Source: Candidatus Omnitrophota bacterium (lineage in GTDB: Bacteria > Omnitrophota > Gorgyraeia > Zapsychrales > Zapsychraceae). From it: a stretch of 64,000 bases of DNA. Below the pieces are notes generated by a model that searched no databases, had not been told where the DNA came from, and saw only the letters and a list, made by a program, of their open reading frames with translations. The DNA lies in the NCBI GenBank assembly GCA_023136835.1, contig JAGLQN010000140.1, forward strand, positions 1 through 64,000, given 5' to 3'. The position numbers and the translations under genes were made by a program. This document shows positions 29,880 to 56,966 of this stretch, in pieces. The stretch's first letter is position 1, and each line of letters opens with the position of its first letter.

Positions 29880-30986
29880 TCACCTTATCATATCCCAAGA
29901 AATAATTTCTTCTGCTGAGATATCCTTATTTGCTTTACGCCCTTCCATTTCTTCTTTAAAGAGATTGGGCGATATGCCTTCGCCAGGTCGGGCAAATTTA
30001 ACCATATCAGGAGTAATCACTTCATCTTTTTTAATATTTTTTTGAGCAACAATGCTTCTTCTGACCATTCTTCGAATAGCCAACTCATCTTCAAATAAAA
30101 TCCTCTTCTCTTTTCCTAAGGCGCTTTCGGTCTCCCTTACAGACTTCACAAGATCGATCATATCTTTTGGCTCAAGCGCGAAAAAATGGTCTGGGCCTTC
30201 CATCTTCCTATCAAGGGTGATATGCTTTTCCACAACACAAGACCCCAAGGCCAACGCGGCTAAAGTAAACGCATTGCTGATCGAATGATCCGAGTACCCG
30301 ACCGGAAATCCATAACGCTCCTCGAACATGGCAATGTTCCTAAGATTAATAACTTCCGGTTTGGGTGGATAGCATGAGACACAATGCAGGATGATTAATT
30401 CTTTATTTCCTGCCTCAACTAACATTTTTATTGTTTCGTCTATCTCTTCAATGCGGGCCATGCCTGTAGAAATGATCAAAGGCTTATTACACTTTGCCAC
30501 CTCTTTCAGTAACGGTAAGTGATTGCAATCAATAGACGCAATCTTAAACACGCCTACTCCCAGCTTTAACAGGAAATTAATATCCTCTATTCTGTGTACC
30601 GTTGAAAAAGGAATGAGACCCTTTTCTCTAACGTAATCAAACATTTCTTCAAACCATTCCCTCGGCATTAATATTCTGTCACGCGCTATTTCCCACCAAG
30701 GTTTTTTTCCATACATATATTCAAGGCCAACATCCGTTGTGGTAACATTCTTGCTAAAAGCTTCTTCAGGGTCATAAACTTGAAATTTTACAGCATCAAA
30801 CTTTGCTTCTGCTGCAGCATCGATCAATTGACGCACGACATTTTTATCACGATTATGGTTAGATCCCACTTCCCCAATGATAAAACTTTTCATGCCGTCC
30901 CCAACGACTGCATTTTCAATCTTTATCTTTTTTGGAGCATCTTTTATTTTAAAATCACTTAGACAATTATCTATTTTACTTCTCAT
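29880..30986 (-). CDS. N-acetylneuraminate-synthase-family (NeuB/PseI/SpsE-like) NulO synthase
   Basis: 368 residues. The TIM-barrel domain begins with FIIGEVGSNHNRD (E39, N43, H44) and contains IISTGMA, LHCVSCYPP and the YSDH...VEKHITLDR block, all NeuB family hallmarks. A C-terminal SAF (antifreeze-like) domain starts with RRSIVAQKNIKKDE. These enzymes condense phosphoenolpyruvate with a six-carbon amino or deoxy sugar to form a nine-carbon nonulosonic acid. Substrate specificity (ManNAc, 6-deoxy-AltdiNAc or legionaminic precursor) is not readable. GAGGGTGAA precedes the ATG. Confidence 0.92.
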   Translation of the reverse strand: MRSKIDNCLSDFKIKDAPKKIKIENAVVGDGMKSFIIGEVGSNHNRDKNVVRQLIDAAAEAKFDAVKFQVYDPEEAFSKNVTTTDVGLEYMYGKKPWWEIARDRILMPREWFEEMFDYVREKGLIPFSTVHRIEDINFLLKLGVGVFKIASIDCNHLPLLKEVAKCNKPLIISTGMARIEEIDETIKMLVEAGNKELIILHCVSCYPPKPEVINLRNIAMFEERYGFPVGYSDHSISNAFTLAALALGSCVVEKHITLDRKMEGPDHFFALEPKDMIDLVKSVRETESALGKEKRILFEDELAIRRMVRRSIVAQKNIKKDEVITPDMVKFARPGEGISPNLFKEEMEGRKANKDISAEEIISWDMIR

Positions 30987-35925: not shown

Positions 35926-36708
35926 TTATAAATTAGCTAACCTATTTGAAAGATTTTCATAAATAAATTTATTTGATGCAATAAGTACGCTGTCTTGAAA
36001 TTTATATTCCCTGCCTTTGCCAGACATCACCATTCCATTGGACTCTCTCACTAAAATTATCCCCGCAGCTAAATCCCAAGAGAACAGTTCTTTTGACCAA
36101 AAACCATCTATTCTACCACAAGCTAAATAGGCAAGACTTAAAGCCGCAGAACCAGTTCTTAATACGCCTCGTGTAGTATCATTCATGTTGCCGAATATTT
36201 CATATTCTCTTTTCTTCTGCTCTGAACGCGCTGATGAAAAGGCAGCAACATATAGACCGTCTTCAACTTCTCTCTTTTGAGAAACATTAATCTGTTGTCC
36301 ATTCAAGAAAGCGCCCTGACCCTTGGATGCATAAAATAGCTCTTGCGTAAAAGGGTTATAAATTGCTCCCGCAACAACCTTTCCATTCTTTTCAACGCCC
36401 ACGGATACAGCGCAAAAAGGGATCTGCTGGCTATAATTAACCGTGCCATCCAAAGGATCAATATGCCATACATATTCAGAATTCATTTTCTCAACTTTTT
36501 CCTCTTCTCCAATAATAGTGTGATCAGTAAAAACTTCTCTGATTTTTTCTTTAATATTTTTTTCAGATAAAATATCAACGTCGGTAACAAGATCTCGAAT
36601 ATTTTGATTTTTCTGCTTGAAATCATGCAGTTTTCCAAAATAATCCACCAAAATATAGCCGCTTGTTTCTACCGCTTTTATCGCAACGGCTAAACACTCT
36701 TTACGCAT
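35926..36708 (-). CDS. Inositol-monophosphatase-family phosphatase
   Basis: 260 residues. GEEEKVEK (E68/E69), the metal-binding HIDPLDGTVNY (83-92) and SWDLAAGIIL are the three diagnostic blocks of the Mg-dependent IMPase/FBPase superfamily. These enzymes remove phosphate from inositol, sugar or polyol phosphates. It overlaps the mannitol-dehydrogenase-like gene by 19 bases, so the pair may turn a sugar phosphate into a polyol phosphate and then a free polyol (inference). Confidence 0.9.
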   Translation of the reverse strand: MRKECLAVAIKAVETSGYILVDYFGKLHDFKQKNQNIRDLVTDVDILSEKNIKEKIREVFTDHTIIGEEEKVEKMNSEYVWHIDPLDGTVNYSQQIPFCAVSVGVEKNGKVVAGAIYNPFTQELFYASKGQGAFLNGQQINVSQKREVEDGLYVAAFSSARSEQKKREYEIFGNMNDTTRGVLRTGSAALSLAYLACGRIDGFWSKELFSWDLAAGIILVRESNGMVMSGKGREYKFQDSVLIASNKFIYENLSNRLANL

Positions 36709-37796
36709 TCCAAACTCCTTTTTGTAAATTTTGACAAATCCTGACCAATAATATATTTTCCTAAAGGATCATAAACCTCTATCCCCGAATACCTTTTTAA
36801 TACTTCTACATCCTCAAGACTTTCCCTTAAATTTTGCAAAAAAACAGCTTCTTTATCATTTGAATCATCATAAACTAAAGCTGCCTTTGCTCCGATCGAA
36901 GTATATTTAGGGATCATTCCACCAAAAAGTGCTATGCGTAACCCGAGAATAATACGATTGTCTTTACCCATTTTGCGAAGTGGTTCCCTGGCAACCCTTG
37001 ATATCGTGTCATAAAGAAACCGGTTGCGAAAACGTCTCAGCTCTTTTTCTCTATACATACTTGCAAATTCCTCGGTAACATATTTTGCGGCTATAACCCC
37101 CTCTGTCATCTCGTTGATCGAACCAACAACCACTTCCTCAATATCTGGATCCGCCATGGCCTCATGAATATAGGTATATCCTTTAAGCCAACCTAAATAA
37201 GCGACAATAGCATGAGGGGTGTTATGAATAAACAATTTACACATCCAATGCATATTTAATTCTTCTGAATCCACCTGCAATATTTCGTCAGGAAATGAAC
37301 AATTACCCTTCTCAAGGACGAGAATTCCTTTTTCGGTTACCGTTATTAAAGGATCCTTTTTTATAATATCCGCGGAGGCCGTATTAGAAGTAATAACATC
37401 AGGAATACCGAAAAATATTCGAGGATTACCAGATAATTCCCGCAGTTTAATCGCCGTTGAAGCATCATTTTCACATGATATTACGGTCTTCGCCTCCTTG
37501 AATTTTTCAGCTAAGTCGTAGCAATTATTAGGGCCCACACAGCAAAAAACAGTATCATACTTATCAATATTCCTTTCCTCACCCAACAAAAAAGCTTCTT
37601 TTATAGGAACATCAACAATTTCATAACCGGCTTCTCCTGTAATGGCAGCCTTATATTGGTCACGCTTTTTCATTTCACCGATAATCCAGCTATCGACATC
37701 AACAAAGCTTAACTCAACGTCATATCTTTGGAAAAGAGGCCCTAAAAACCCTCTTCCTATAGCTCCGGCTCCGTAAATTAAAATTTTTAATGACAT
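36690..37796 (-). CDS. Mannitol-1-phosphate 5-dehydrogenase-like (polyol dehydrogenase family)
   Basis: 368 residues. GAGAIGRGFLGP at 9-20 is the nucleotide-binding loop. K187, N192 and H195 (KLFIHNTPH) match the conserved Lys-x5-Asn-x2-His catalytic set of the long-chain mannitol dehydrogenase family. MtlD converts fructose 6-phosphate and mannitol 1-phosphate; here the true substrate may be another ketose phosphate or uronate. No mannitol PTS genes are nearby, so sugar import is an unlikely role. It overlaps the IMPase-like gene. Confidence 0.85.
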   Translation of the reverse strand: MSLKILIYGAGAIGRGFLGPLFQRYDVELSFVDVDSWIIGEMKKRDQYKAAITGEAGYEIVDVPIKEAFLLGEERNIDKYDTVFCCVGPNNCYDLAEKFKEAKTVISCENDASTAIKLRELSGNPRIFFGIPDVITSNTASADIIKKDPLITVTEKGILVLEKGNCSFPDEILQVDSEELNMHWMCKLFIHNTPHAIVAYLGWLKGYTYIHEAMADPDIEEVVVGSINEMTEGVIAAKYVTEEFASMYREKELRRFRNRFLYDTISRVAREPLRKMGKDNRIILGLRIALFGGMIPKYTSIGAKAALVYDDSNDKEAVFLQNLRESLEDVEVLKRYSGIEVYDPLGKYIIGQDLSKFTKRSLECVKSV

Positions 37797-37836
37797 ATAA
37801 AGTTATTTCTCCTGAACATTCCCATGTTTACTCCGT

Positions 37837-39375
37837 TCATACCCTTGTAAATTCTTTTTCACGCAGCTTTCGCCTAAGCACTTTCCCCGAGGGCCCCTTT
37901 GGCAATTCCCGGACAAATTCAATTTCAGACGGCACTTTAAAGTCTCCCAGATGCTCCCGGCAATGCGCTTTCAGCTCTTTAACGCCAACAGCCAAACCGC
38001 CTTTCAAAACAACATAACTTTTAATCACCTCTCCCAAAAACATATCCGGCTTGCCAATAGTCGCAGCATCTTGAACATATTCATGCAACAAGAGCGTTTC
38101 ATCAATTTGAGAAGGGACGATGTTGACCCCTCCTTTGATAATTAAATCTTTTTTCCGGTCAGCATAATAAAATATCCCTTTCTCATCCATATACCCCAAA
38201 TCGCCGGTCAAGAAATATCCGTTTTTGAAAGATTGTTCGTATTGTGCCGTATTTTCATAATATCCTTTTAACAAACTCGGACCTTTTACGGCAAATTCTC
38301 CGGATTGACCTGTTTCGACCTCACGCCCCGCTTCATCAAAAACTCTGATATCCATAATATCGATCAGCTTTCCGATCGTACCTGTTTGCCGGTCAGGCTC
38401 AAAAGGGTTATCAAAATGCGTTGCCCCTGTTTCAGAAAGACCATACATATTCGCAAGCGGAATATTAAATTTTTCCTCAAATTTATCTTGCAAACTTTTA
38501 GAAAGATAAGCGGAACCGCAACCTATAAACTTTAAACTGGAAATATCATATTTATTAAAATTCTCATAACTCGTGTTTAAAATGGCAATTAATATCGATG
38601 GAACTATTTCAAAGAATGTAACTTTATGCTCCTGAACAATATTCCATAGATCGGCTCTCGTTTTCCAAAACGACTCATATAAAACAACTTTTGAACCGGA
38701 AAGAAGGCACGGCCAAATAGAGTATCTTATTGCCGCTGTATGCCCCAAAGGTAGAACACAAAGATGGCAAGAACCGGGCTCGATAAATGCGCTCCTTAGC
38801 AGAGAAGCCATGGCCAGAATCTCGCTTCGTGTTGAATATTCAATAATCTTAGGAGACCCCGTCGTACCGGATGAATAATACATAAATGCGGTCGCATCAG
38901 GATCAATATCCTCAGAAGGATATTCATCATCCGAGAAATTTTTAATCCGGTTTTCAAGGATCATTTTCCCATCAGACTGTATCGCCTGAACATCCAATCC
39001 CTCTTGCTTTAGTTTGTCGGCGTGCTGGGCATGCGTATAAACGGCCCTGGAACCAATAAAATCAATTTTTTCTTTAATTTCTTCACTGCCCAAATGGAAC
39101 GGAAAAGGATTGATTGTGCATCCCATCCTTAGCGCCGCAAAGTATATGATTAAGTAATCAAGTGAATTCTTCAATACAATGGAAATAATGTCGCCTTTGC
39201 AAACGCCGTCACTCTCCAGCATCCGGCTACAACGGTTTACCAAACGATTAAACTGCTCATAAGAATATTCTTTTTTATTCTCAACAATGAAGACTTTTCC
39301 GGCGAATACATTCGCGGCATCAGAAAGTATTTCAGAAAAGTTGTCATATTCTTCTATATTTTTAACAATTTTCAT
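37837..39375 (-). CDS. AMP-dependent acyl/aryl ligase (ANL superfamily)
   Basis: About 512 residues from the ATG at 39375; a longer in-frame extension would overlap the acyltransferase gene and is not needed. The phosphate loop YSSGTTGSPK (about 167-176), the YGLSETG-type block, LTGDLGYMDEKG and the terminal LPKGPSGKVLRRK with the catalytic lysine are all present. The enzyme adenylates a carboxylic acid and loads it on CoA or an ACP. An ACP gene and a GNAT transferase in the same cluster suggest a three-part acyl delivery route. Confidence 0.9.
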   Translation of the reverse strand: MKIVKNIEEYDNFSEILSDAANVFAGKVFIVENKKEYSYEQFNRLVNRCSRMLESDGVCKGDIISIVLKNSLDYLIIYFAALRMGCTINPFPFHLGSEEIKEKIDFIGSRAVYTHAQHADKLKQEGLDVQAIQSDGKMILENRIKNFSDDEYPSEDIDPDATAFMYYSSGTTGSPKIIEYSTRSEILAMASLLRSAFIEPGSCHLCVLPLGHTAAIRYSIWPCLLSGSKVVLYESFWKTRADLWNIVQEHKVTFFEIVPSILIAILNTSYENFNKYDISSLKFIGCGSAYLSKSLQDKFEEKFNIPLANMYGLSETGATHFDNPFEPDRQTGTIGKLIDIMDIRVFDEAGREVETGQSGEFAVKGPSLLKGYYENTAQYEQSFKNGYFLTGDLGYMDEKGIFYYADRKKDLIIKGGVNIVPSQIDETLLLHEYVQDAATIGKPDMFLGEVIKSYVVLKGGLAVGVKELKAHCREHLGDFKVPSEIEFVRELPKGPSGKVLRRKLREKEFTRV

Positions 39376-39385
39376 AAGCATCCAC

Positions 39386-40369
39386 TTAGAATATTTCGGT
39401 CGTGTCCCCCATAGTGAAATACCAGTTTGCACCATCCAACATAGGCCTATATTTTTCTTGATCACAATTTAGTCTGCATATTAATGGCCGCGGCCTTACT
39501 GACTTAAATCCATTTTCTAATAAAATATCCCTATATATTGCGGCTCCTATCATCCAAGTGCTTACAACGTTAGTGTTATTATCAACAAAAAAAATGTCGC
39601 TTTGCCCCAGCAAGTAAGCAGCCACATCGCCCCTTCCCGACAATGAATAAATATCTACAATATGTCCTCTTAATATTTCCCCATCTTGATATAATTTCAA
39701 AATAACATAGCCTACCAAAATATTATTCTCGTACACACCAAAGGCGTGATATTTTTGATCCGGCCTCTCTAAATATCTCCAATTCAAGAAAGCGGCGTCT
39801 CTAATAACCGATATTTTATAATCATCCTTCCCTTGATCCCACAAAGCATCAACAGAATGGTCAAATTGCGTTATTGGTAAAAATTCAAAATCCGCAGAAA
39901 CATTCTTTCCCCCAGACGGCCCGTCAACACGTGTTTCCTTTTCCAGTGTGTCAACCATAATCACATCGCTGTAGCCCATTAATTTTTTATGCAAATCATA
40001 GGCTAAATCATTAGGAAAACCATAAGAAAACGCCATATCTTTCGTTACAATATCCTCAAAAAGTTTATCCGCGACGAATTTAATAAGACCTTTGCCTTGA
40101 TATTCAGGCAAAACCATTGACCCAATAGAATGCGACCCGAGCACGTCTTTACCTAACACCCTCAATCGATATGGAATGGCTGCAAAATGAACAATAATCT
40201 TCCCTTCATGCTCCATAAGATAAATAGTCGCATTACCCGCTGGATTATTGCCAGTGTGCTTCCAATACCAATTATCCAAATCCCGCTTATTCCAGGGGTC
40301 CGGAAACAAGATCCAATCCAGTTCTAAAATTTGATTCTCATCTCCTGGCTGATATGACCTGATTTTCAT
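39386..40369 (-). CDS. GNAT-family acyltransferase, two-lobed
   Basis: 327 residues. The first 150 residues follow the GNAT layout, with MVLPEYQGKGLIKFV as the acyl-CoA/pantetheine loop motif and FSYGFPNDLAYDLHKKLMGY after it. The second half is about as long and may be a degenerate second GNAT lobe, so it is larger than PseH/SpsD. It overlaps the PseG-like gene by 32 bases. In nonulosonate pathways this position is taken by the N-acetyltransferase acting on the 4-amino sugar. It could use an ACP-bound acyl donor, given the cluster's ACP. Confidence 0.75.
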   Translation of the reverse strand: MKIRSYQPGDENQILELDWILFPDPWNKRDLDNWYWKHTGNNPAGNATIYLMEHEGKIIVHFAAIPYRLRVLGKDVLGSHSIGSMVLPEYQGKGLIKFVADKLFEDIVTKDMAFSYGFPNDLAYDLHKKLMGYSDVIMVDTLEKETRVDGPSGGKNVSADFEFLPITQFDHSVDALWDQGKDDYKISVIRDAAFLNWRYLERPDQKYHAFGVYENNILVGYVILKLYQDGEILRGHIVDIYSLSGRGDVAAYLLGQSDIFFVDNNTNVVSTWMIGAAIYRDILLENGFKSVRPRPLICRLNCDQEKYRPMLDGANWYFTMGDTTEIF

Positions 40370-41345
40370 AAATCAATAACTCCTCTGCTATTCTTTTTGC
40401 ACCCTGCCCATCAACTAATCTTATTCCAACATCCCTACAGCGTAGCCGTTCTTCTTTCGAATCAAGCTTGTTAAGCGCTCGGATCAACTTCTCTTCGACT
40501 CTGCCAAAATCCCCAATATATTCAATAAAACCTTCCCGGCTCCATCCCTCCAAATTTAATATCTGATTGTCTGATTGACAAAAGGCTATCGTCGGCACTC
40601 CAGATCTTGCAAGCTCGTAGAGAGTCTGCCCTCCTGAAGAAATCGCAATATCTGCCTGTGTCATGATTTCAGCCATTTTCCTCACGTCGGGATAATACAC
40701 TAGATGCGTATTGATATCGGACACACTCTTGATCTCATTTATGTTGTCAAATCCGTTACCTATAATGATATCTTTTCTTAACGTCGGATACTGGTCTTTT
40801 AAAAACTTAACCATTTTAGGTATAATATTTTTAGGATCATTTCCCCCGGTTGTTATCATAACGCTTTCAATTGAATCACCCGGTTCTTTTAGCTCCATCT
40901 CCCAGAACAACTTTCTTAAAGGAGCATACCCGCATCCCAAAAGATATTGAACATCTTCCCTCTCTGGATATTTTAACGTTGTCGCATGAATACCACTATT
41001 AATGACGACACCTCTGGGATAATCCAATCTCTTATTATCATCAATATAAACCGGAACCCTTACCCGTTCAGATAACTCTCTATAAAAATTAAGATCCGCC
41101 AAGTAAGAATCGATAATGACAACATCAGCTTCTTCAATAAATTTAATACACTCCCACTTTTCATGGAGCCAATTACATGCCTGATAACTACCTTCCTTGA
41201 GTATCCTTCTTATACTTTCGTCGCCATTAACAACAAATGTCGGGATTACCCCTTTCTCCGCAAACGCCTGCACAATAGAACTGCATCTGATGATGTGCCC
41301 CAAACCGCCGATCGCACCACCTTCTGTTAAAAACAAGACTTTCAT
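40338..41345 (-). CDS. pseG: PseG/SpsG-like UDP-sugar hydrolase
   Basis: 335 residues with a GT-B fold. GGLGHIIRC at 13-21 includes the catalytic His equivalent to PseG H17, and SSGGQTLYELARSGVP is the nucleotide-binding C-terminal motif. PseG releases UDP from UDP-2,4-diacetamido-2,4,6-trideoxy-altrose, giving the free sugar that a NeuB-type synthase uses. Its ATG overlaps the spsF-like stop by four bases. Given the NeuB-like and PseC-like genes, this role fits well; a true glycosyltransferase role is less likely. Confidence 0.85.
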   Translation of the reverse strand: MKVLFLTEGGAIGGLGHIIRCSSIVQAFAEKGVIPTFVVNGDESIRRILKEGSYQACNWLHEKWECIKFIEEADVVIIDSYLADLNFYRELSERVRVPVYIDDNKRLDYPRGVVINSGIHATTLKYPEREDVQYLLGCGYAPLRKLFWEMELKEPGDSIESVMITTGGNDPKNIIPKMVKFLKDQYPTLRKDIIIGNGFDNINEIKSVSDINTHLVYYPDVRKMAEIMTQADIAISSGGQTLYELARSGVPTIAFCQSDNQILNLEGWSREGFIEYIGDFGRVEEKLIRALNKLDSKEERLRCRDVGIRLVDGQGAKRIAEELLIYENQVISARR

Positions 41346-42100
41346 CCATTGACCTCTTGATCGCGCTCCAAGGATTTGATTAAACCTTCATTTCTCACGA
41401 TGTTCATATTAAGCTCGTAAACATTTTCATGTTCGTCTAAATACGCCTTAACATCGTCTCCGGAAAAATTGAATATACTTTTTTTATGGAAATATTCAAA
41501 GACGGCCGTCACCACCTGAAAATCACTTTGTTCATCCACTGAAAATCTGTACCGGCCATCATTCGTTGTATTTTCCAACACTGATGTTTTGAACTCGTCC
41601 TGATGATTGAACACATAGAGCATGACATGTTCTCTTTCTGATGAGAGCTTTGCTTGCGCCCAAACTTTCTTTAAGGTATTCAATGTAAAGACCTCGCAAT
41701 CCAGTCCTTCCGCAAAAGTGAGTCCGACTTTCACATAATCAAATTTTTCCTTCAAAAAAGCACCTATAACTTGGTCGCACACTTTAGGATCAACCAAAGG
41801 ACAATCACCGGTAATTCTTACTATGCCATCGGGGTCGTACTGTTTTGCGACTTGACAAAATCTATCTAAGACGTCACTTTCGCTGCCTCGATAGACATCA
41901 AATCCACAGTTTTGCACATAATCAGCGAGTTCATTATTCTCTGATAAGTGTGACGTAGCCAATATGATCTTATCGATTCCTTTAGACAAAGATAATCTTG
42001 CAAGCAAATGGCCAATCATTGGCTTACCAAGAATTTTTTTCATTACCTTTCCGGGTAAACGGGTTGAAGACATTCTCGCTTGTACAATGGCTAAAATCAT
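41342..42100 (-). CDS. spsF: SpsF-type CMP-sugar cytidylyltransferase
   Basis: 252 residues. IVQARMSSTRLPGKVM at the start, RITGDCPLVDP in the middle and DSxxDFQ-like blocks are the pattern of COG1861 proteins (SpsF), relatives of acylneuraminate cytidylyltransferases. They are expected to activate a nonulosonic acid with CTP. The ordering next to PseG-like and aminotransferase genes parallels the Bacillus spsCDEFG operon. Substrate choice not determinable. Confidence 0.87.
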   Translation of the reverse strand: MILAIVQARMSSTRLPGKVMKKILGKPMIGHLLARLSLSKGIDKIILATSHLSENNELADYVQNCGFDVYRGSESDVLDRFCQVAKQYDPDGIVRITGDCPLVDPKVCDQVIGAFLKEKFDYVKVGLTFAEGLDCEVFTLNTLKKVWAQAKLSSEREHVMLYVFNHQDEFKTSVLENTTNDGRYRFSVDEQSDFQVVTAVFEYFHKKSIFNFSGDDVKAYLDEHENVYELNMNIVRNEGLIKSLERDQEVNG

Positions 42101-42104
42101 ATTT

Positions 42105-43415
42105 TCACGTTAACCTTTTAAATCCCGAGTGACAAACGGGGCCGTCTAACATCTCCTCTAAAGCCCCGGATCTTACCGCTTCAGAAATCATTGCGAAAAC
42201 GTCACCGGCGGCATCTAAATATTTATCGACAATCTCCTTTGTGTGCGCATAAGATACATAGATAGCATTAGTCGCCAAAAATCCTCTCTTTAACATCTCT
42301 TGTGTAAATATTGTTTTAATCACAAGCGGCTGATCTTCCTTGATCTCCATAACCGGTAGAGAAGCGATTCCGGCCATATCGATTTTTAAAGAACATTTCT
42401 TAAAAATATTTTTTAATTCATTCGACAAATAGTTCCCCGTCTCAACTATTTTCTGTGATACATTGTCCCGTTTAAATATCTTTATGGTTTCTAGCGCGGC
42501 CGCAAAACCTGTTCTCTCCGTCCAGAAAGTACTACTAATGAAGGTCGTCTGTGCCGCTTGCATAACATCACGCGTCCCGAGCACGCATGAAATAGGATAA
42601 CCATTGCCCAGCGCCTTCCCAAGAATGATCATGTCCGGTATAATTCCATAAACCATATGCATTCCGCCCGTTGTAACCCTGAAGCCCGATGACACTTCAT
42701 CAAACACAAAAACAGCACCGATTTCTTCACTGATCTTTCTGACCTCTTTTAAAAAATCTGGATCAACTTCTTTGTGCCTGCAGACTTCCATCATAACAAC
42801 GCCGATGCTGTTTTTATTCTCTTCAACCAATTTCTTAAATCCTTGAATATCACCATAATTAAAAGGTATTGATGTGCTTATCAACCCTTCAGGAACGCCG
42901 CACGGATCTAATCCCGGAAGAAGCTGACCATTAAGATTTTCTTTATCAGCTAAATTCGAAGCCAGATACCAATCGCTCCATCCATGGTAACCACAAAAAG
43001 CAACCTTATCTTTCTTTGCGAAAGCTCGGGCGATGCGAACGGCGATCGCGCAGGCTTCACCACCTGTCTTGGCATATCTCACCATTTGGGCCCAGGGATG
43101 CAATTCAATTAATTTCTGAGCCAAATGGACTTCTTCATAACAATTAAGAGTCGACATATTCCCATCAGTAACAGCAGCTACAACAGCATTATTGATCTCG
43201 TCATTTGCATATCCCAATATGCATGAACCGATCCCCATAAGGCTCATATCATAATAATGTTGATCATCCAGATCCCAAACCTCAGCCCCTTTCGCTTTCT
43301 TATAATAGGAAGGCCATTTCTCCGGCAAAAACATTTCCCCCCGCTTTGATAAGAGCTGCGTTCCTCCCGGAATAATTTTTTTAGCTTCTCTATATAATTC
43401 TTGAGATTTTCCCAT
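42105..43415 (-). CDS. Class III PLP-dependent aminotransferase (GSA aminomutase-like), copy 2
   Basis: 436 residues from the ATG at 43415, which has AGAGG at good spacing; an ATG three codons upstream directly abuts the ribosome site. Motifs: RYAKTGGEACAIAVRIAR, FCGYHGWSDWY, FVFDEVSSGFR and the PLP lysine in LGKALGNGYP. It lies between the SpsF-like gene and a formyltransferase. This fits a keto sugar or NulO side-chain aminotransferase whose amine is then formylated (inference). Not hemL: no tetrapyrrole genes nearby. Confidence 0.87.
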   Translation of the reverse strand: MGKSQELYREAKKIIPGGTQLLSKRGEMFLPEKWPSYYKKAKGAEVWDLDDQHYYDMSLMGIGSCILGYANDEINNAVVAAVTDGNMSTLNCYEEVHLAQKLIELHPWAQMVRYAKTGGEACAIAVRIARAFAKKDKVAFCGYHGWSDWYLASNLADKENLNGQLLPGLDPCGVPEGLISTSIPFNYGDIQGFKKLVEENKNSIGVVMMEVCRHKEVDPDFLKEVRKISEEIGAVFVFDEVSSGFRVTTGGMHMVYGIIPDMIILGKALGNGYPISCVLGTRDVMQAAQTTFISSTFWTERTGFAAALETIKIFKRDNVSQKIVETGNYLSNELKNIFKKCSLKIDMAGIASLPVMEIKEDQPLVIKTIFTQEMLKRGFLATNAIYVSYAHTKEIVDKYLDAAGDVFAMISEAVRSGALEEMLDGPVCHSGFKRLT

Positions 43416-44460
43416 CAATATCATCCTCTAATGGCGGACAGAGTACTTCATCTTTCAACCCCATGGGCGTATAAACCGCTTTAAACATTTTTGCCTGCTC
43501 TAAATATTTTAGTGGAGTATAAAATCTCTCCCCTAAACGTAATTCATCTTGCACTCCCTTACCATCCTCATTCAATACCTTATTAATAATCAGTGTTCCT
43601 TCATTAACCGAAACTAAGATTTCATCTTCCATTTTTCTGTAGATAATGCCCTGTTGAAATGGATGAAATGACCCGTCATTATAATCAACTTGACACCCTT
43701 TCAAAAAAACTTTTTGCCCATTAATGAATGTCGCGGCTCCACCATAAGGAGCATCAAAGGCATTAATAAAAGTCTCAACATGTTCTAATAACCAGCTCCA
43801 ATCAATAAAAGCGTGATTTTTTGTGTTTAGCCGCGGCCAATACATGCTGAGATATTCGGGTTGACCAACTACCTTAAAGTCATTTTTGGCCTTTACCTGA
43901 GACATAAACTCCTTAAAAAAGATAATACTTTTCTGATTATGATAATCAATGAAATCTTGAGGAATCTGGCACAACGCAGGATAAATAAACTCTTTATATT
44001 TAACGATATCACCATTATCAATGCCCGGAAAAACTTGATGAACAAGGCAATATCCTAATTTATTTTTTCCTAATATTTGCCAGGTAAACCCTCCTCCTCC
44101 TCTATTCTGAGGAAGCCTGGTTCCATGCATATTAATAAGTCTTCCGTTAAAGAGTTGAATAAATTGTTCTTTGAAAATCCAGGCGGCACCCAGACTTAAA
44201 CCCAATGTTTTGTCGGTAATATTGCTCAAAACCTTCTTGTTAGTACTGATACCCTCTACCTCATAAAAATCGATACCATCTTTTATTAACAATTCTTTTA
44301 GAGTTCTCCCCCCTTCCCATTGTTCTTTTAAATGCCTTGGCGCGCTAAACACAACGACCTCATATCCACTATTACTTAATTGCTTTGCCACATCGCGTAA
44401 AAACAATCCGCCACCAAAAAGAATTACTTTATTAATGTCACCAAAATTTATTTTGATCAT
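43390..44460 (-). CDS. Formyltransferase (Fmt-like), probable amino-sugar N-formyltransferase
   Basis: 356 residues. The catalytic triad of tetrahydrofolate-dependent formyltransferases is intact: N110 and H112 in LINMHGTRLP and D148 in PGIDNGDIV. The C-terminal third resembles the Fmt OB-fold (FINGQKVFLKG, GTLIINKV). Family members formylate Met-tRNA, UDP-amino-arabinose or dTDP-amino-6-deoxyhexoses. Position next to an aminotransferase and NulO genes favours formylating a free amine on a sugar. It overlaps the aminotransferase start by 26 bases. Confidence 0.85.
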   Translation of the reverse strand: MIKINFGDINKVILFGGGLFLRDVAKQLSNSGYEVVVFSAPRHLKEQWEGGRTLKELLIKDGIDFYEVEGISTNKKVLSNITDKTLGLSLGAAWIFKEQFIQLFNGRLINMHGTRLPQNRGGGGFTWQILGKNKLGYCLVHQVFPGIDNGDIVKYKEFIYPALCQIPQDFIDYHNQKSIIFFKEFMSQVKAKNDFKVVGQPEYLSMYWPRLNTKNHAFIDWSWLLEHVETFINAFDAPYGGAATFINGQKVFLKGCQVDYNDGSFHPFQQGIIYRKMEDEILVSVNEGTLIINKVLNEDGKGVQDELRLGERFYTPLKYLEQAKMFKAVYTPMGLKDEVLCPPLEDDIDGKISRII

Positions 44461-44472
44461 ATTAGCCTTCTT

Positions 44473-45351
44473 TCAATTAACAGCCCATTTATAAGGTAAA
44501 AGAGTATTCTCGTTCTGGATTGCAATCGCGCTCAATTGCCCATACACGTTTCTGACTTGGCCAATCAAATTTAAGCTCACAACATTATTTTCAAAATGAG
44601 CTAAACAATCCACCCCAATAATAACTTTATCAATATGAGGGCTTAATAATACAAAATTTAAACAAAGCGCCTCGACAGAGATTTTTCGGATTTCCGCAAT
44701 CTGCTGTAATTTTTCTAATTGCGGTCTTGCCTCTTGAAGTGATCCCGTCAAATGCTCCGAACTCAAGAAAGCCAATCCCTGCAGAAATACGGATCTCACC
44801 TGAATTTCAATTTCCCGTTCTTTCAACATGTCAAAATAACCTTCAAATCTCCGATCAAAAACGCTGTAAGGAATCTGTATAATGTCAAAATCTAATTCAT
44901 TTTTTAATAAACATTCTAACTCGTCCGGAGAGTATAAAGAAAATCCTATTTTCTCTATCCGTCCATCATCTTTTAGGCGAACCAAACTATTCCAAATGTC
45001 ATCGTTTATTAAAATATCCGAAAATTGATGCACTAAATATCCGTATATTCTTTTTAAACCTATCCTCCTGAGGCTTTCCTCTAAGCTTTCTTCAACTTTA
45101 CCCAGGTTAAATAACTCCATAGAGGGTAATTTGGAAACAATTTTAAATTCACTTGGATTTTCTTTTAAATATTCACCAATAATCAACTCACTATCACCGT
45201 AGGAATAAGCTGTATCCAAATAACTTATGCCAACGTGATTGGCATGATCAAGGATTTCAAACACTTCCTTTTTTGATACTTTTCCCGTTGTGTTGGCTAT
45301 CCCGTAATCTTGTCCGAATTGAACAGTTCCCAAACTAATCTTGGATATCAT
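44473..45351 (-). CDS. Aldo/keto reductase
   Basis: 292 residues, TIM-barrel. The catalytic tetrad is visible as YLDTAYSYG (Asp, Tyr), a Lys in KIVSKLP and a His in YLVHQF. Aldo/keto reductases of this kind recur in cytidylyltransferase-aminotransferase clusters for nonulosonic acids. It might reduce or oxidise a side-chain carbonyl to feed the adjacent class III aminotransferase. The gene lies between the fusion protein and the formyltransferase with short gaps. Confidence 0.88.
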   Translation of the reverse strand: MISKISLGTVQFGQDYGIANTTGKVSKKEVFEILDHANHVGISYLDTAYSYGDSELIIGEYLKENPSEFKIVSKLPSMELFNLGKVEESLEESLRRIGLKRIYGYLVHQFSDILINDDIWNSLVRLKDDGRIEKIGFSLYSPDELECLLKNELDFDIIQIPYSVFDRRFEGYFDMLKEREIEIQVRSVFLQGLAFLSSEHLTGSLQEARPQLEKLQQIAEIRKISVEALCLNFVLLSPHIDKVIIGVDCLAHFENNVVSLNLIGQVRNVYGQLSAIAIQNENTLLPYKWAVN

Positions 45352-45355
45352 AAAG

Positions 45356-47509
45356 TTACTTCGCGATTTCTTTTATATCTTTGATTACTTTATTTACTTC
45401 CGCTTTTGCCATCATCGGATATAGCGGAATAGAAAGACAATTGCGATAATATCGTTCCATATTAGGAAAATTTCCCTCATTTGTTTTGAAACATTCTCTA
45501 TAGTAGGGCTGTGTGTAAACAGGTATATAATGAACCTGTGTCTGAATCCCCTTATTTCTTAATTCAAGCATGACCTGCGCTCTAGACTTTCTGATTTTTT
45601 CAAAATCAAACTGAAGAACGTAAAGATGAAAATTACTATCACAATAATCTTTTTCTAATGGAGTTTTAAGCCACTCGATATTCTTAAATGTATCATTGTA
45701 AAGATCAACAATCTCCCTTCTTCGTTGACGAAAACCATCTAACTTCTTTAACTGAGAAATCCCTAACGCGCATTGAATTTCAGTAATACGGTAGTTGTAT
45801 CCCAAACAATTTTGCTCATAATACCATGGATTTCTTAACGGCTTATCTCCGGTATACTTGCTTTGATCAACAGCATTCTCCTTATACAGCAGTTCATCAA
45901 AATCACTAGTGATCCCATGGGAGCGAAAATAACTTAATTTCCGGCGCAATTCTTTATTATTGGTTAAAACAGCCCCTCCTTCACCTGTCGTGATATGTTT
46001 GATAGGATGAAAACTCATAACCGTCATATCCGAATAAGCACAAGAGCCAACCTTTGTTTGTTTATAAGAAGATCCCAACGCATGGCAAGCATCTTCAATA
46101 ATATAAATTTTATGTCCAAACTTTTTTTCATACGAATGTACGCAATCGTGAATGGCCTCCATATCACAGCTTTGTCCGGCAAAATGAACAAGAATGATCG
46201 CCCTAGTCTTTTTGTTAATCCTCTTTTCAATTCCCTGTAAAGAAATATTGTATGTTTCTGGATCAATATCGACAAAGACAGGCTTCCCCCCACAATAAAC
46301 AACACAATTAACCGAGGCAACAAAAGTATTGGGAGGGACAATTACTTCATCACCATTGCTTATGCCCGCAGCTAAACAAGTAATATGTAACGCTGATGTT
46401 CCTGAATTGACAACAACACCTAAAGAAGCATCTGTTACCTGGCATAAAGCGGATTCAAACTCACGAATTCGGGGGCCCTGTGTAATCGCTTCTGATTTTA
46501 AGGTCTCAACAACAGAATTAATATCATCATCATCAATACACTGCTGGCCATAGGAAATAATACCCGATGCGGAAGGATAAATATTAATATGACGCCCGCT
46601 TGATTTTATTTTCTCAGGGACACCCTTTTTAAAATCTTCCACAAAACGTTCTATTGAATAAGATATCGGGGGAATATCTATCGAAAGATCTTTAGCTAAT
46701 TTTCTAGTATTAAGGCTCAACTGTTTATTGCGTTTGGCTTTAAACTCAAATTCATCGATAGAAATTGGCTTGATCAGATTCTGTTTAAGATTTAACTGAT
46801 TCGCGATCTCAGAAACAAATTCATATTTGGACATCGAAGAACTGCTGGCGCAGTTATAAATTCCTGATAAATTCTTTTTTATAGCTAAATCCAGAAGTTT
46901 TGCTAATTCAAATGTGTAAATCGAGGAAAAAAAACAATCCATAAACCCATACATTTCTCTATTTTGTGTCAACTCATGGATCACCCACTCTCCGAGGCTA
47001 TATTTATTCTGAACATTCCATCCGAAGAAATTCGTTCTCAAAACCAAGGAATCCTTCTTTTTCAAGACTTCTTTTTCAGCTTGGCATTTTGTCGTTCCAT
47101 AATGATTGAGTGGCTTAACCGGGTCCGCTTCAGAAAACGAATCCTTTTCTCCACTATAAACCAAATCCGTAGATATATAGACTAGCGTAATTCCAGCCCC
47201 ATTCACATTTTCTATCAAATTCTGCGTTCCTAAAACATTGATACGCTGAGCATCTTCGGGGTGCTCTTCACACACATCCACATCAGCCTGGGCCGCACAA
47301 TGGACAATGATTTCAGGGCTGAATTCACGGATAAGCCTGCTGACATCTTTGCCCGACGTAAGATCTATATTGATGGTCTCAATTCCTGCCATCTCAACTT
47401 TATGAGTATGATACACTCCTAATATGTTATAGGAATCTCTCATGAGATAGGCTAGATTACTTCCCAAAAGACCGCTAATTCCGGTAATTAACATCTTCTT
47501 TTTTTTCAT
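45356..47509 (-). CDS. pseC: Fusion: RmlD-like SDR + PseC-like DegT aminotransferase
   Basis: 717 residues. Residues 1-300 form an extended SDR related to dTDP-4-dehydrorhamnose reductase: G10/G13/G16 loop, YISTDLVYSG at 111-120 and Y137-GTT-K141. Residues about 308-717 form a complete DegT/DnrJ/EryC1 aminotransferase: NSGTSALH, EDACHALGS (472-480) and PLP lysine K504 in SFHPIKHITTGEGG, the signature of PseC (UDP-4-keto-6-deoxy-GlcNAc C4 transaminase). One frame without interruption covers both parts, so this is a genuine fusion. The SDR could make or reduce the keto substrate passed to the aminotransferase. Confidence 0.9.
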   Translation of the reverse strand: MKKKKMLITGISGLLGSNLAYLMRDSYNILGVYHTHKVEMAGIETINIDLTSGKDVSRLIREFSPEIIVHCAAQADVDVCEEHPEDAQRINVLGTQNLIENVNGAGITLVYISTDLVYSGEKDSFSEADPVKPLNHYGTTKCQAEKEVLKKKDSLVLRTNFFGWNVQNKYSLGEWVIHELTQNREMYGFMDCFFSSIYTFELAKLLDLAIKKNLSGIYNCASSSSMSKYEFVSEIANQLNLKQNLIKPISIDEFEFKAKRNKQLSLNTRKLAKDLSIDIPPISYSIERFVEDFKKGVPEKIKSSGRHINIYPSASGIISYGQQCIDDDDINSVVETLKSEAITQGPRIREFESALCQVTDASLGVVVNSGTSALHITCLAAGISNGDEVIVPPNTFVASVNCVVYCGGKPVFVDIDPETYNISLQGIEKRINKKTRAIILVHFAGQSCDMEAIHDCVHSYEKKFGHKIYIIEDACHALGSSYKQTKVGSCAYSDMTVMSFHPIKHITTGEGGAVLTNNKELRRKLSYFRSHGITSDFDELLYKENAVDQSKYTGDKPLRNPWYYEQNCLGYNYRITEIQCALGISQLKKLDGFRQRRREIVDLYNDTFKNIEWLKTPLEKDYCDSNFHLYVLQFDFEKIRKSRAQVMLELRNKGIQTQVHYIPVYTQPYYRECFKTNEGNFPNMERYYRNCLSIPLYPMMAKAEVNKVIKDIKEIAK

Positions 47510-54167: not shown

Positions 54168-55118
54168 TTATCCGCTCATGTTAACTGCCTGTACAGCCTT
54201 CCCTGCCTTAACTAAAGCGGTAATCTTTTCTGATAGCTGATGAGGTTGTAGGCCATATTTTTCCAATAGTGAATCTTGATCCCCATAAGCCTGAACAAAA
54301 GCATCCGGAAGTCCAAACCTATAAATTGGAGGAAGATCTGACGAAGTAAGATTATCCACGAGAAATTCTACACACGCGCTTCCCAGGCCCCCGATTAGCG
54401 TGTGTTCTTCAAGCGTTATCACCATCTTGGATTTTCTTACGTGCTCCACAATATCTTTGTCTAAAGGTTTAACAGTATGAACATGCAAAACGCCGCATTC
54501 TATTCTTTGCGCAGAAAGCAACTCGGCCGCCGATATCGCCCTATTTGTCATCGCCCCGTTAGCAATAATAAGGATATCCCCTTCCCGCATCAGAATAGCT
54601 TTCCCAATTTCAAAACCAGCATCATTCTTGCTTACGATCGGCTTACCATACTTTGCCATCCTGATATACATCGACCCAGGCCAACTGATCGTCAATGGCA
54701 TGAGCCGGGTTACCTCATCCGCGTCACAAGGAACAACGACGGTCATGTTCGGAATCGCGCGCATGATAGCAACATCTTCAATCGCCGTGTGCGTGGGGCC
54801 AAGATGAGCGGTTGTTAAACCACCTCCCATTCCAATCACTCTAATGGGCCGATTCTGCAGACACGAATCAAGAGCAATTTGCTCATAACACCGTCTAGTA
54901 TTAAAAGTTGCGTGGTTCAATATATAAGGTATGTATCCTTCAGCCGCCAACCCCGTTGCCATTCCAATAATGTTGGCTTCAGATATTCCCTCCATAAAGT
55001 ATCGGCCCGGAATAACATCCTGAAAATCCAACCCCGGTGTTTGATCACCACAAATCAAAACTACGTTCGGATTTGCTTGCGCCATTTGATAAATCATCTT
55101 CATGCATGCTCGAAGCAT
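54168..55118 (-). CDS. Split transketolase, C-terminal (pyrimidine-binding) subunit
   Basis: 316 residues. ICGDQTPG, FMEGISEANIIGMATG (with the catalytic Glu of ISEANIIG) and GPTHTAIEDVAIMRAIPN match the transketolase central domain, and the transketolase C-terminal domain follows (ITLEEHTLIGGLGSA). The ATG shares one base with the stop of the N-terminal subunit gene (TAATG). The two proteins together form one TPP enzyme that transfers a two-carbon ketol unit. The location suggests a dedicated sugar pathway, not the pentose cycle (inference). Confidence 0.92.
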   Translation of the reverse strand: MLRACMKMIYQMAQANPNVVLICGDQTPGLDFQDVIPGRYFMEGISEANIIGMATGLAAEGYIPYILNHATFNTRRCYEQIALDSCLQNRPIRVIGMGGGLTTAHLGPTHTAIEDVAIMRAIPNMTVVVPCDADEVTRLMPLTISWPGSMYIRMAKYGKPIVSKNDAGFEIGKAILMREGDILIIANGAMTNRAISAAELLSAQRIECGVLHVHTVKPLDKDIVEHVRKSKMVITLEEHTLIGGLGSACVEFLVDNLTSSDLPPIYRFGLPDAFVQAYGDQDSLLEKYGLQPHQLSEKITALVKAGKAVQAVNMSG

Positions 55119-55957
55119 TAATAGTCCTCCAGAACCGAATACATACGATTCATCAAATCATCATCGATTTTACTTTTCCAATGCCATTGGGCGCTTCCTT
55201 CCGCAAAGGGAAATCCCTTTCCCTTGACCGTATGGCAAATAATAGCCGTTGGCCTTTCAACCGACTTTTCAAAAGCGCGTTTAAGCTCATTAACATCATG
55301 GCCATTGACCTCAACAGGATCAAATCCAAAACTTCTCCATTTGTCAGATAATGATTCAAGACACGTGATCTCATTGGTAGAACCGGCAAGCTGGACTTTG
55401 TTATAATCCACAATCGCGACAAGATTAGATAAATTATGCTTAGAAGCACTTAAAGCCGCCTCCCAAACGGAACCCTCTCCGAGCTCTCCATCCCCCAGTA
55501 ATACATAAACCTTGTTTTTCCTATTTTTCATTAAAGCCGCCAGGGCCATGCCAACTCCGACAGACAAGCCATGGCCCAGAGCGCCTGTCGTTACTTCGAT
55601 TCCCGGCACGATAATTTCGCAGCATCCGCCAAGCCGTGAATCCTTCATGCTGTACGTTTTTAACTCTTCAACAGGAAAAAATCCTTTATCCACCAAGACC
55701 GCGTAGAGCCCGAGACATCCATGACCTTTGCTAAGTATAAACCGATCCCGTCGATCCCAAGCGGGTTCATCGGCCTTATATTTCATAATGTGATCATAGA
55801 GAACCCGGACGATTTCGATCAATGACATCGCTGATCCAAAATGGCCTTTGCGCGGCCCTTGCAGCCCTTGCAAAACAAGTCCCCGAAGGTATTTCGACCT
55901 TTCATCAAGCTTAATTTTTATTGCCTCTTCAGCTAATTCCGCTGTGACATTGGACAT
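55118..55957 (-). CDS. Split transketolase, N-terminal (TPP-binding) subunit
   Basis: 279 residues from the ATG at 55957, which has AAGGA eight bases upstream; an ATG eight codons earlier lacks one. FILSKGHGCLGLYAVL, TTGALGHGLSVGVGMAL, the TPP-binding GDGELGEGSVWEA...VDYN and the terminal FxTVKGKGFPFAE-type block identify the transketolase N-terminal subunit. It overlaps the kinase gene upstream by 29 bases, so both genes are probably co-translated. Confidence 0.92.
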   Translation of the reverse strand: MSNVTAELAEEAIKIKLDERSKYLRGLVLQGLQGPRKGHFGSAMSLIEIVRVLYDHIMKYKADEPAWDRRDRFILSKGHGCLGLYAVLVDKGFFPVEELKTYSMKDSRLGGCCEIIVPGIEVTTGALGHGLSVGVGMALAALMKNRKNKVYVLLGDGELGEGSVWEAALSASKHNLSNLVAIVDYNKVQLAGSTNEITCLESLSDKWRSFGFDPVEVNGHDVNELKRAFEKSVERPTAIICHTVKGKGFPFAEGSAQWHWKSKIDDDLMNRMYSVLEDY

Positions 55958-56966
55958 AAGGAAATTCCTTATAAGATTCATGAATCGACTTCATTAAATT
56001 CCTCACACGTTTAAGCTGTTGATCCCTTTGCGCATCCGCGCTTGATGCCAGAAGCTGATACCCCGGCTGGAACGGATTAAGCATGATCATGCACCATTTC
56101 AATCCGAACAGCGGATACAACAGCTTAAGCCTTGTCACAAACATTTCATCTTTTTCGAAAATCTTAACAAGGCTTGAACGCAATGCCTGCTTCTTTTCTT
56201 CATCTAATACCATCCCCGGATGTTGAAGAGTATCGGCGACCAATTTAACCGGATCATCCCAACCAAAGAACTCAAAATCTAGAAAATAGAGCTTATCATC
56301 TTTTCTCAAGACATTGTGACAGCCAACATCTACAAGGCTAAGCGTTTGTTGTTTGAAAGAAATATTTTCTGAGAAATTTAACCCTGAATGCTTATATTGC
56401 TTTTGGCTCCAGTCGGAAATTTCATTGAACACAGGGATAAACCCTTCATCAATAAATGCGCGTAATTCCGGATATTGATCTTTCGAAGCGTCCAATCTGC
56501 TTAACCGCAAACTTATCTGCCTGACAATCTCGCTTCCGTTTAAACACGCTTCTGTTGCGTGTCTAATATCCTGACCGGACTGTTTTTCAGCGACATCATC
56601 CACCACCTGAATAAACGCGGCCAATTCACCTATTTCATTAATGCCAAAGTCGTCAACCGGCTTGCCCTCAATCCATTCCATCAAGACGCAATTATTTGTT
56701 TTATCTTCTGCAACAACGCGGGGAGTCGCTTCTATGCCGTTCTCAGAAAACAAACGTAATGCCGTTGTCTCCGCCTCAAACCTCTCTCTCTTGCCCTCCT
56801 TGTCCGGCCGGAAAAACTTCAAAGCAAAGACGTTTCTGTCATTTTCTACCTTATAAATACGGCTGTTTCTTCCACCTTCAATCGGGGAAACATTCAAAGC
56901 CGTTGTTCCACAAAGAGAACCGGCAATGTCTTTAACATATTGATCGTTGTTTTCTGTACTACGCAT
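55929..56966 (-). CDS. APH/choline-kinase-like phosphotransferase
   Basis: 345 residues. IEGGRNSRIYKV (nucleotide loop), FALKFFRPD (ATP-binding Lys), LMEWIEGKPV (hinge) and FLDFEFFGWDDP (metal-binding Asp) define the aminoglycoside phosphotransferase fold. The catalytic loop reads SLVDVGCHNVL: Asp and Asn are kept, but the usual His of HxD is replaced. It would phosphorylate a small hydroxyl compound, probably a sugar made by neighbouring genes. Confidence 0.78.
   Translation of the reverse strand: MRSTENNDQYVKDIAGSLCGTTALNVSPIEGGRNSRIYKVENDRNVFALKFFRPDKEGKRERFEAETTALRLFSENGIEATPRVVAEDKTNNCVLMEWIEGKPVDDFGINEIGELAAFIQVVDDVAEKQSGQDIRHATEACLNGSEIVRQISLRLSRLDASKDQYPELRAFIDEGFIPVFNEISDWSQKQYKHSGLNFSENISFKQQTLSLVDVGCHNVLRKDDKLYFLDFEFFGWDDPVKLVADTLQHPGMVLDEEKKQALRSSLVKIFEKDEMFVTRLKLLYPLFGLKWCMIMLNPFQPGYQLLASSADAQRDQQLKRVRNLMKSIHESYKEFPYVQCHSGIS

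Follow-up and report, generated by a model that had tools for sequence, protein, structure and literature searches.

A conserved fusion of an RmlD-like SDR with a PseC-type aminotransferase in one bacterial phylum and its possible branch-point role in the synthesis of pseudaminic-type nonulosonic acids

RmlD (dTDP-4-dehydrorhamnose reductase) reduces a ketone comparable to the product of PseB. PseC is a single-domain aminotransferase in the solved structures, among them that of H. pylori PseC (2fnu). In the UDP-L-FucNAc pathway, the product of WbjB/CapE is reduced at C4 by a dedicated reductase, WbjC/CapF (PMC5774825). In the Pse pathway of Bacillus thuringiensis, PseB is known to be replaced by two enzymes, Pen and Pal (PMC5109656), and an additional SDR accompanies a PseB-like dehydratase. 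The Pse clusters of Vibrionaceae and Moritella are known to contain an SpsF-AKR fusion (PMC7371886), and a fused gene is therefore in itself nothing unusual in a cluster of this kind.

The window, i.e., the whole stretch of 64,000 nucleotides analysed here, encodes a 717-residue protein that joins an SDR to a PseC-type aminotransferase. Its C-terminal half has the fold of H. pylori PseC and passes the PseC model TIGR03588, and to this the protein adds a 300-residue SDR at the N-terminus. The SDR half has the PF04321 family, the GxxGxxG motif and the S/T-Y-K residues in common with RmlD; however, it falls below the RmlD equivalog cut-off, and a true RmlD is encoded elsewhere in the genome. Unlike in the WbjB/CapE and WbjC/CapF pair, the candidate reductase is fused to an aminotransferase; the dehydratase here is PseB-type, with Y and not M in its YxxxK motif, and no CapF chain was found among the matches listed for the SDR half. 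In contrast to Pen/Pal, the SDR half resembles RmlD much more than Pal, and the PseB is FlaA1-like. The Vibrionaceae and Moritella fusion joins other enzymes, although AKR and SpsF-type genes are present here too. Both halves belong to known families, and we found no description of an SDR-aminotransferase fusion in the open-access papers searched, in agreement with the earlier note on this DNA, which knew of no characterised enzyme with this domain order.

The earlier note had read a single uninterrupted frame encoding a complete extended SDR and a complete DegT aminotransferase, and this reading was confirmed. The open reading frame has 717 codons and a stop, starts with ATG and ends with the stop codon at 45356-45358 on the minus strand; the plus strand has many stops and no open frame across the interval. 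In Pfam, RmlD_sub_bind (PF04321) matched residues 5-293 with 169.7 bits (gathering score 27) and DegT_DnrJ_EryC1 matched residues 324-712 with 390 bits. NCBIfam PseC (TIGR03588) matched residues 318-715 with 488.6 bits, above its equivalog cut-off of 423.5. The SDR half scored 167.8 bits against NCBIfam RmlD (TIGR01214), below the cut-off of 224.05, and 29.3 bits against PseB (TIGR03589), far below the cut-off of 407.75. By these profile scores, the SDR half is RmlD-like and not RmlD. The predicted YxxxK motif (YGTTK at 137-141) and PLP lysine (K504 in SFHPIK) are in place, both halves are complete and conserved, and the catalytic residues are kept in 16 of 16 fusions. The GxxGxxG motif, S/T at 113-114, Y137 and K141 are kept in fused and stand-alone SDRs alike. 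An AlphaFold2 model built from 40 sequences had a mean pLDDT of 94.2, which dropped at the linker to a mean of 61 over the block 301-310, with 305-307 as the sole run of at least three residues below 50; its pTM of 0.70 does not fix the relative orientation of the halves. VIA-align, whose results concern the PseC half only, superposed this half on H. pylori PseC (2fnu) with Z 51.1 and rmsd 1.5 over 367 residues, with ArnB chains tied in Z, and the SDR fold was judged from sequence and secondary structure. The coordinates of the gene, its parts and its neighbours are given in Table 1.

Table 1. Features of the fusion gene and of the surrounding nonulosonic acid locus.
Feature	Coordinates	Strand	Basis or remark
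SDR-PseC fusion gene, 717 aa	45356..47509	(-)	ORF, domains, fifteen further full-length fusions
SDR half, RmlD-like extended SDR, residues 1-300	46610..47509	(-)	PF04321; GxxGxxG, S113/T114, Y137, K141
SDR YxxxK motif (YGTTK), residues 137-141	47087..47101	(-)	Y and K kept in all 16 fused and all 9 stand-alone SDRs
Linker, residues 301-314	46568..46609	(-)	pLDDT drop
PseC half, DegT-family aminotransferase, residues 315-717	45359..46567	(-)	TIGR03588; Z 51.1 to 2fnu
PLP lysine codon, K504 (SFHPIK)	45998..46000	(-)	K kept in 16/16 fusions
Aldo/keto reductase (AKR), next gene downstream of the fusion, 4-bp gap	44473..45351	(-)	PF00248; after or near the fusion in most fusion loci
Formyltransferase-like protein	43390..44460	(-)	PF02911 over, PF00551 just under gathering score
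Class III (GSA-like) aminotransferase, nonulosonic acid module	42105..43424	(-)	PF00202; AKR and SpsF-type genes close by in most fusion loci
SpsF/PseF-type cytidylyltransferase	41342..42100	(-)	PF02348, 130.6 bits
PseG-like UDP-sugar hydrolase	40338..41345	(-)	TIGR03590, 146.8 bits, just below cut-off 153.55
GNAT acyltransferase, candidate PseH role (from position)	39386..40369	(-)	PF13527/PF00583
NeuB/PseI-type nonulosonic acid synthase	29880..30986	(-)	PF03102, 258.5 bits at G000:C47:30105-30827
PseB, just outside the window	contig 69805-70863 (L011:9806-10864)	same as fusion	TIGR03589, 485 bits, cut-off 407.75

The fusion family comprises 16 full-length proteins in 15 genomes of the host phylum, with two copies in one genome (G026). 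The other 15 proteins are 49-64% identical to the window protein and have the same domain order and linker position. A chance or assembly join is excluded, because these 15 full-length fusions come from 14 other genomes. The hosts, 13 of which were found in a sample of 384 genomes of the phylum, belong to several families of the host order and to other families of the class (G184, G211, G240), and one (G096) is placed only in the same phylum. Members of one bacterial phylum thus share the fusion as a conserved family, and it is not a one-off; the contig scan used one protein query and finds close relatives only, so that the spread is known within the host phylum. The earlier note had named a common and already characterised fusion as the finding that would overturn its view: the fusion is indeed recurrent in this phylum, but no characterisation of it was found. 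In phylogenetic trees, the fused PseC domains formed one clade (support 0.998), and the fused SDRs were nested among stand-alone SDRs, which were basal, with many deep nodes weak. The stand-alone SDRs of G070 and G061 grouped inside the fused set, which suggests that these genes lost their PseC half.

Some apparent homologs were rejected. A full-length match in Holosporaceae (L009) arose because tblastn joined adjacent, separate PseB and PseC genes, and another match (L010) covered the PseC stretch only. A plasmid search with the SDR half found RmlD-type genes at about 30% identity only. A 726-aa frame in G257 (L084:8587-10767) is not a family member: it joins an SDR_5572-like part (37%) to a DegT aminotransferase (34% to PseC), and is a second, different fusion. 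In G100 (L096), a PseC N-terminal segment at G100:C12:143999-144835, 52% identical over query residues 314-609, lies within a 24,293-codon open frame that sits directly after a PseB gene. Open frames of such length are reminiscent of Omnitrophota, which may be the host phylum.

The contig of the window encodes, by homology, a near-complete pseudaminic-type set, i.e., PseB, the fused PseC, a PseG-like hydrolase, a GNAT protein, an SpsF-type cytidylyltransferase and a NeuB-type synthase, the last being the only one found in the genome. Downstream of the fusion, the interval 36690-44460 holds formyltransferase, class III aminotransferase, acyl-CoA ligase-like and mannitol dehydrogenase-like genes, which may point to a nonulosonic acid with an unusual N-acyl or N-formyl decoration; no homolog of the formyltransferase-like gene was seen in the other fusion loci examined. 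At 54168-55981, a transketolase-like protein is split over two adjacent genes inside the glycan locus, as judged by eye from the translations.

The PseB gene lies 22 kb upstream of the fusion. Among solved structures, its protein is closest to FlaA1/PseB (E 1e-110), followed by CapE (7.5e-65) and Pen (8.6e-62). The earlier note had suggested that the fusion could channel a keto sugar. A role of the SDR as supplier of the PseC substrate in place of PseB was rejected, because a bona fide 485-bit PseB is encoded on the same contig and strand; SDR homologs also occur in genomes without a PseC over the cut-off. The PseB proteins of the host order fall into two score groups, one at about 540 bits and above (PseB-A) and one at 419 bits and below, and PseB-A proteins are 68-79% identical to the PseB of the window contig and keep the standard active site STDK...YGATK. 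Among 81 genomes of the order, the SDR, fused or alone, was found in 16 of 16 with PseB-A versus 3 of 65 others (Fisher p 2.9e-14, uncorrected for kinship or linked inheritance). In the class sample the SDR again accompanied PseB-A in 16 of 16 genomes, mostly the same ones as in the order set. A C-terminal tail, DDYxIExSRWxMDDVPE with some substitutions, was present in 18 of 18 PseB-A sequences and in none of 26 other PseBs. Because the tail is conserved in sequence yet disordered in a single-chain model (pLDDT below 50 at residues 342-347 and 349-352 at its end), it is a candidate docking motif. The PseBs of G096, which has the fusion, and G063, which has a stand-alone SDR, have no tail; therefore, the tail is not strictly required.

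To annotate the neighbouring genes of the fused and stand-alone SDRs, we compared them with the proteins of the window. Downstream of the fusion there are usually, in varying order, genes for an AKR, a class III aminotransferase, an SpsF-type protein and NeuB. PseB is directly upstream of the fusion in six loci (L044, L047, L049, L081, L082, L083) and further off elsewhere. A stand-alone SDR directly follows PseB in L058, L059, L060, L061 and L151. In L059 the gene order is PseB, SDR, SDR_8790, HddA, SDR_5572, which is matched, minus the stand-alone SDR, by the order PseB, SDR_8790, HddA, SIS, SDR_5572 on the window contig. Four loci (L058, L152, L170 and L168, the last starting at a contig end) had PseB, SDR and NeuB and no PseC in the stretch read. 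Two others (L097, L161) had PseB, PseC, AKR, SpsF, class III aminotransferase, PseG-like and NeuB genes, and no SDR was seen in them. In L097 (6692-8368) and L170 (3625-5280), the AKR is fused to the SpsF-type cytidylyltransferase. Among genomes with a stand-alone SDR only, 9 of 13 lacked a PseC over the TIGR03588 cut-off, some being incomplete MAGs or having contigs that end nearby; in G370, G325 and G021 a PseC is encoded on a different contig, and in G471 an unfused PseC gene sits about 7 kb away from that of the SDR. None of the 15 fusion genomes has a PseC over the cut-off besides a fused one; G026 has two, both fused.

Because the SDR and PseC swap in otherwise similar loci and both accompany PseB, the two are probably alternatives that act on the C4 ketone of the PseB product, one reducing it and the other aminating it. 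PseB would make UDP-4-keto-6-deoxy-L-AltNAc. The PseC half is predicted to transaminate C4 of this ketone with PLP, giving UDP-4-amino-4,6-dideoxy-L-AltNAc, which would lead to a 7-amino (pseudaminic-type) nonulosonic acid. With NAD(P)H, the SDR half would reduce this C4 ketone as well, to a UDP-2-acetamido-2,6-dideoxy-L-hexose, which could serve as a direct sugar donor or as a route to a 7-hydroxy nonulosonic acid. The fusion would thereby hold both consumers of the labile ketone in a fixed ratio, and the conserved C-terminal tail of the cognate PseB may dock the complex. We infer the SDR's substrate and direction from homology and gene context and its 4-ketoreductase role on the PseB product from gene context; its product and stereochemistry, any docking and the operation of both activities are likewise inferred. 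With moderate confidence, we read the fusion as a branch-point enzyme in the synthesis of pseudaminic-type nonulosonic acids, in which the SDR reduces and PseC aminates the PseB ketone. The added reduction step suggested in the earlier note is, on this evidence, probable as a reduction, though one that runs in parallel from the ketone used by PseC and is not a further step on the PseC product, since the swap is between a stand-alone SDR and PseC.

Several observations argue against this branch-point role. It would be an unusual design for a single chain to carry two enzymes that compete for one ketone. A single NeuB is present in several fusion genomes, among them that of the window and G184 (94% complete), so that a 7-hydroxy nonulosonic acid made separately would require a promiscuous synthase, or else the SDR product must have another use. 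The presence of a GNAT acetyltransferase in L058, where the SDR was found and no PseC was seen, hints at an amino group. Furthermore, the unfused PseC of G471 lies near its SDR, and the fusion of G096 is accompanied by a tail-less PseB.

Alternatively, the two halves might act in sequence on the same molecule, e.g., with the SDR adjusting the PseB-A product by epimerisation or a Pal-like finishing step before amination. Consecutive steps are often joined by fusion, the SDR goes with a single PseB subfamily, several fusion genomes have only one NeuB, and Pen with Pal offers a precedent; nevertheless, we consider this order of steps unlikely. PseB-A keeps its standard active site and is nearest to FlaA1/PseB, and the match of the SDR half to Pal (6bwl) was weak and partial (residues 45-150, E 1.7e-6, compared with 2e-26 for the best RmlD-type chain), so that an assignment as Pal was rejected. 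The SDR and NeuB also occur together in loci that showed no PseC, in which a mere ketone-maker would leave C4 unresolved, and related loci go from PseB to PseC without an SDR.

It is somewhat less probable still that the SDR acts on another substrate of the pathway, e.g., a later keto intermediate from the AKR or the class III aminotransferase, with the fusion only coordinating expression. The AKR and class III aminotransferase genes do lie near the fused and several of the stand-alone SDRs alike. However, L097 and L161 have these genes and SpsF without an SDR, and in L059, L060, L151 and L152 the SDR adjoins PseB, and neither an AKR nor a class III aminotransferase was seen close by. The SDR half could also be a non-catalytic NAD(P)-binding domain with a regulatory or scaffolding function, as MAT2B is for methionine adenosyltransferase, and MAT2B chains were among its closest solved sequences (E about 8e-26). 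We regard this as improbable, given that S/T, Y and K are kept in fused and stand-alone copies and that genomes without a PseC over the cut-off still keep the SDR as a gene of its own. That the SDR half is the cell's own RmlD for dTDP-L-rhamnose, accidentally fused, is hardly credible despite its PF04321 membership and the presence within the window of an RmlC over the cut-off and RmlA/RmlB-like genes (translations read by eye), as it reached 167.8-170.9 bits against a cut-off of 224, a separate RmlD over the cut-off (274 bits, C564:1503-2333) lies beside an RmlC in the same genome, and 12 of the 15 fusion genomes had no RmlC match.

The branch-point reading can be extended to a complex, in which the PseB-A tail docks on SDR-PseC and the ketone is split into 4-hydroxy and 4-amino products, yielding a pseudaminic-type acid in amounts matched to those of either a 7-hydroxy (L-altro series) nonulosonic acid or a UDP-6-deoxy-L-HexNAc donor. 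This full picture is speculative, and we would not expect all of it to hold. To our knowledge, a 7-hydroxy (L-altro series) nonulosonic acid has not been described. The PseB tail offers a simple docking hypothesis, and, for annotation, RmlD-like SDRs beside PseB should not be named rhamnose genes. If the branch-point reading is true, the loci in which the SDR replaces PseC would be predicted to make a nonulosonic acid with oxygen in place of the 7-amino group of pseudaminic acid, and the fusion would be a natural means of setting the ratio between two sugars that derive from a single unstable intermediate, with both of its consumers on one chain.
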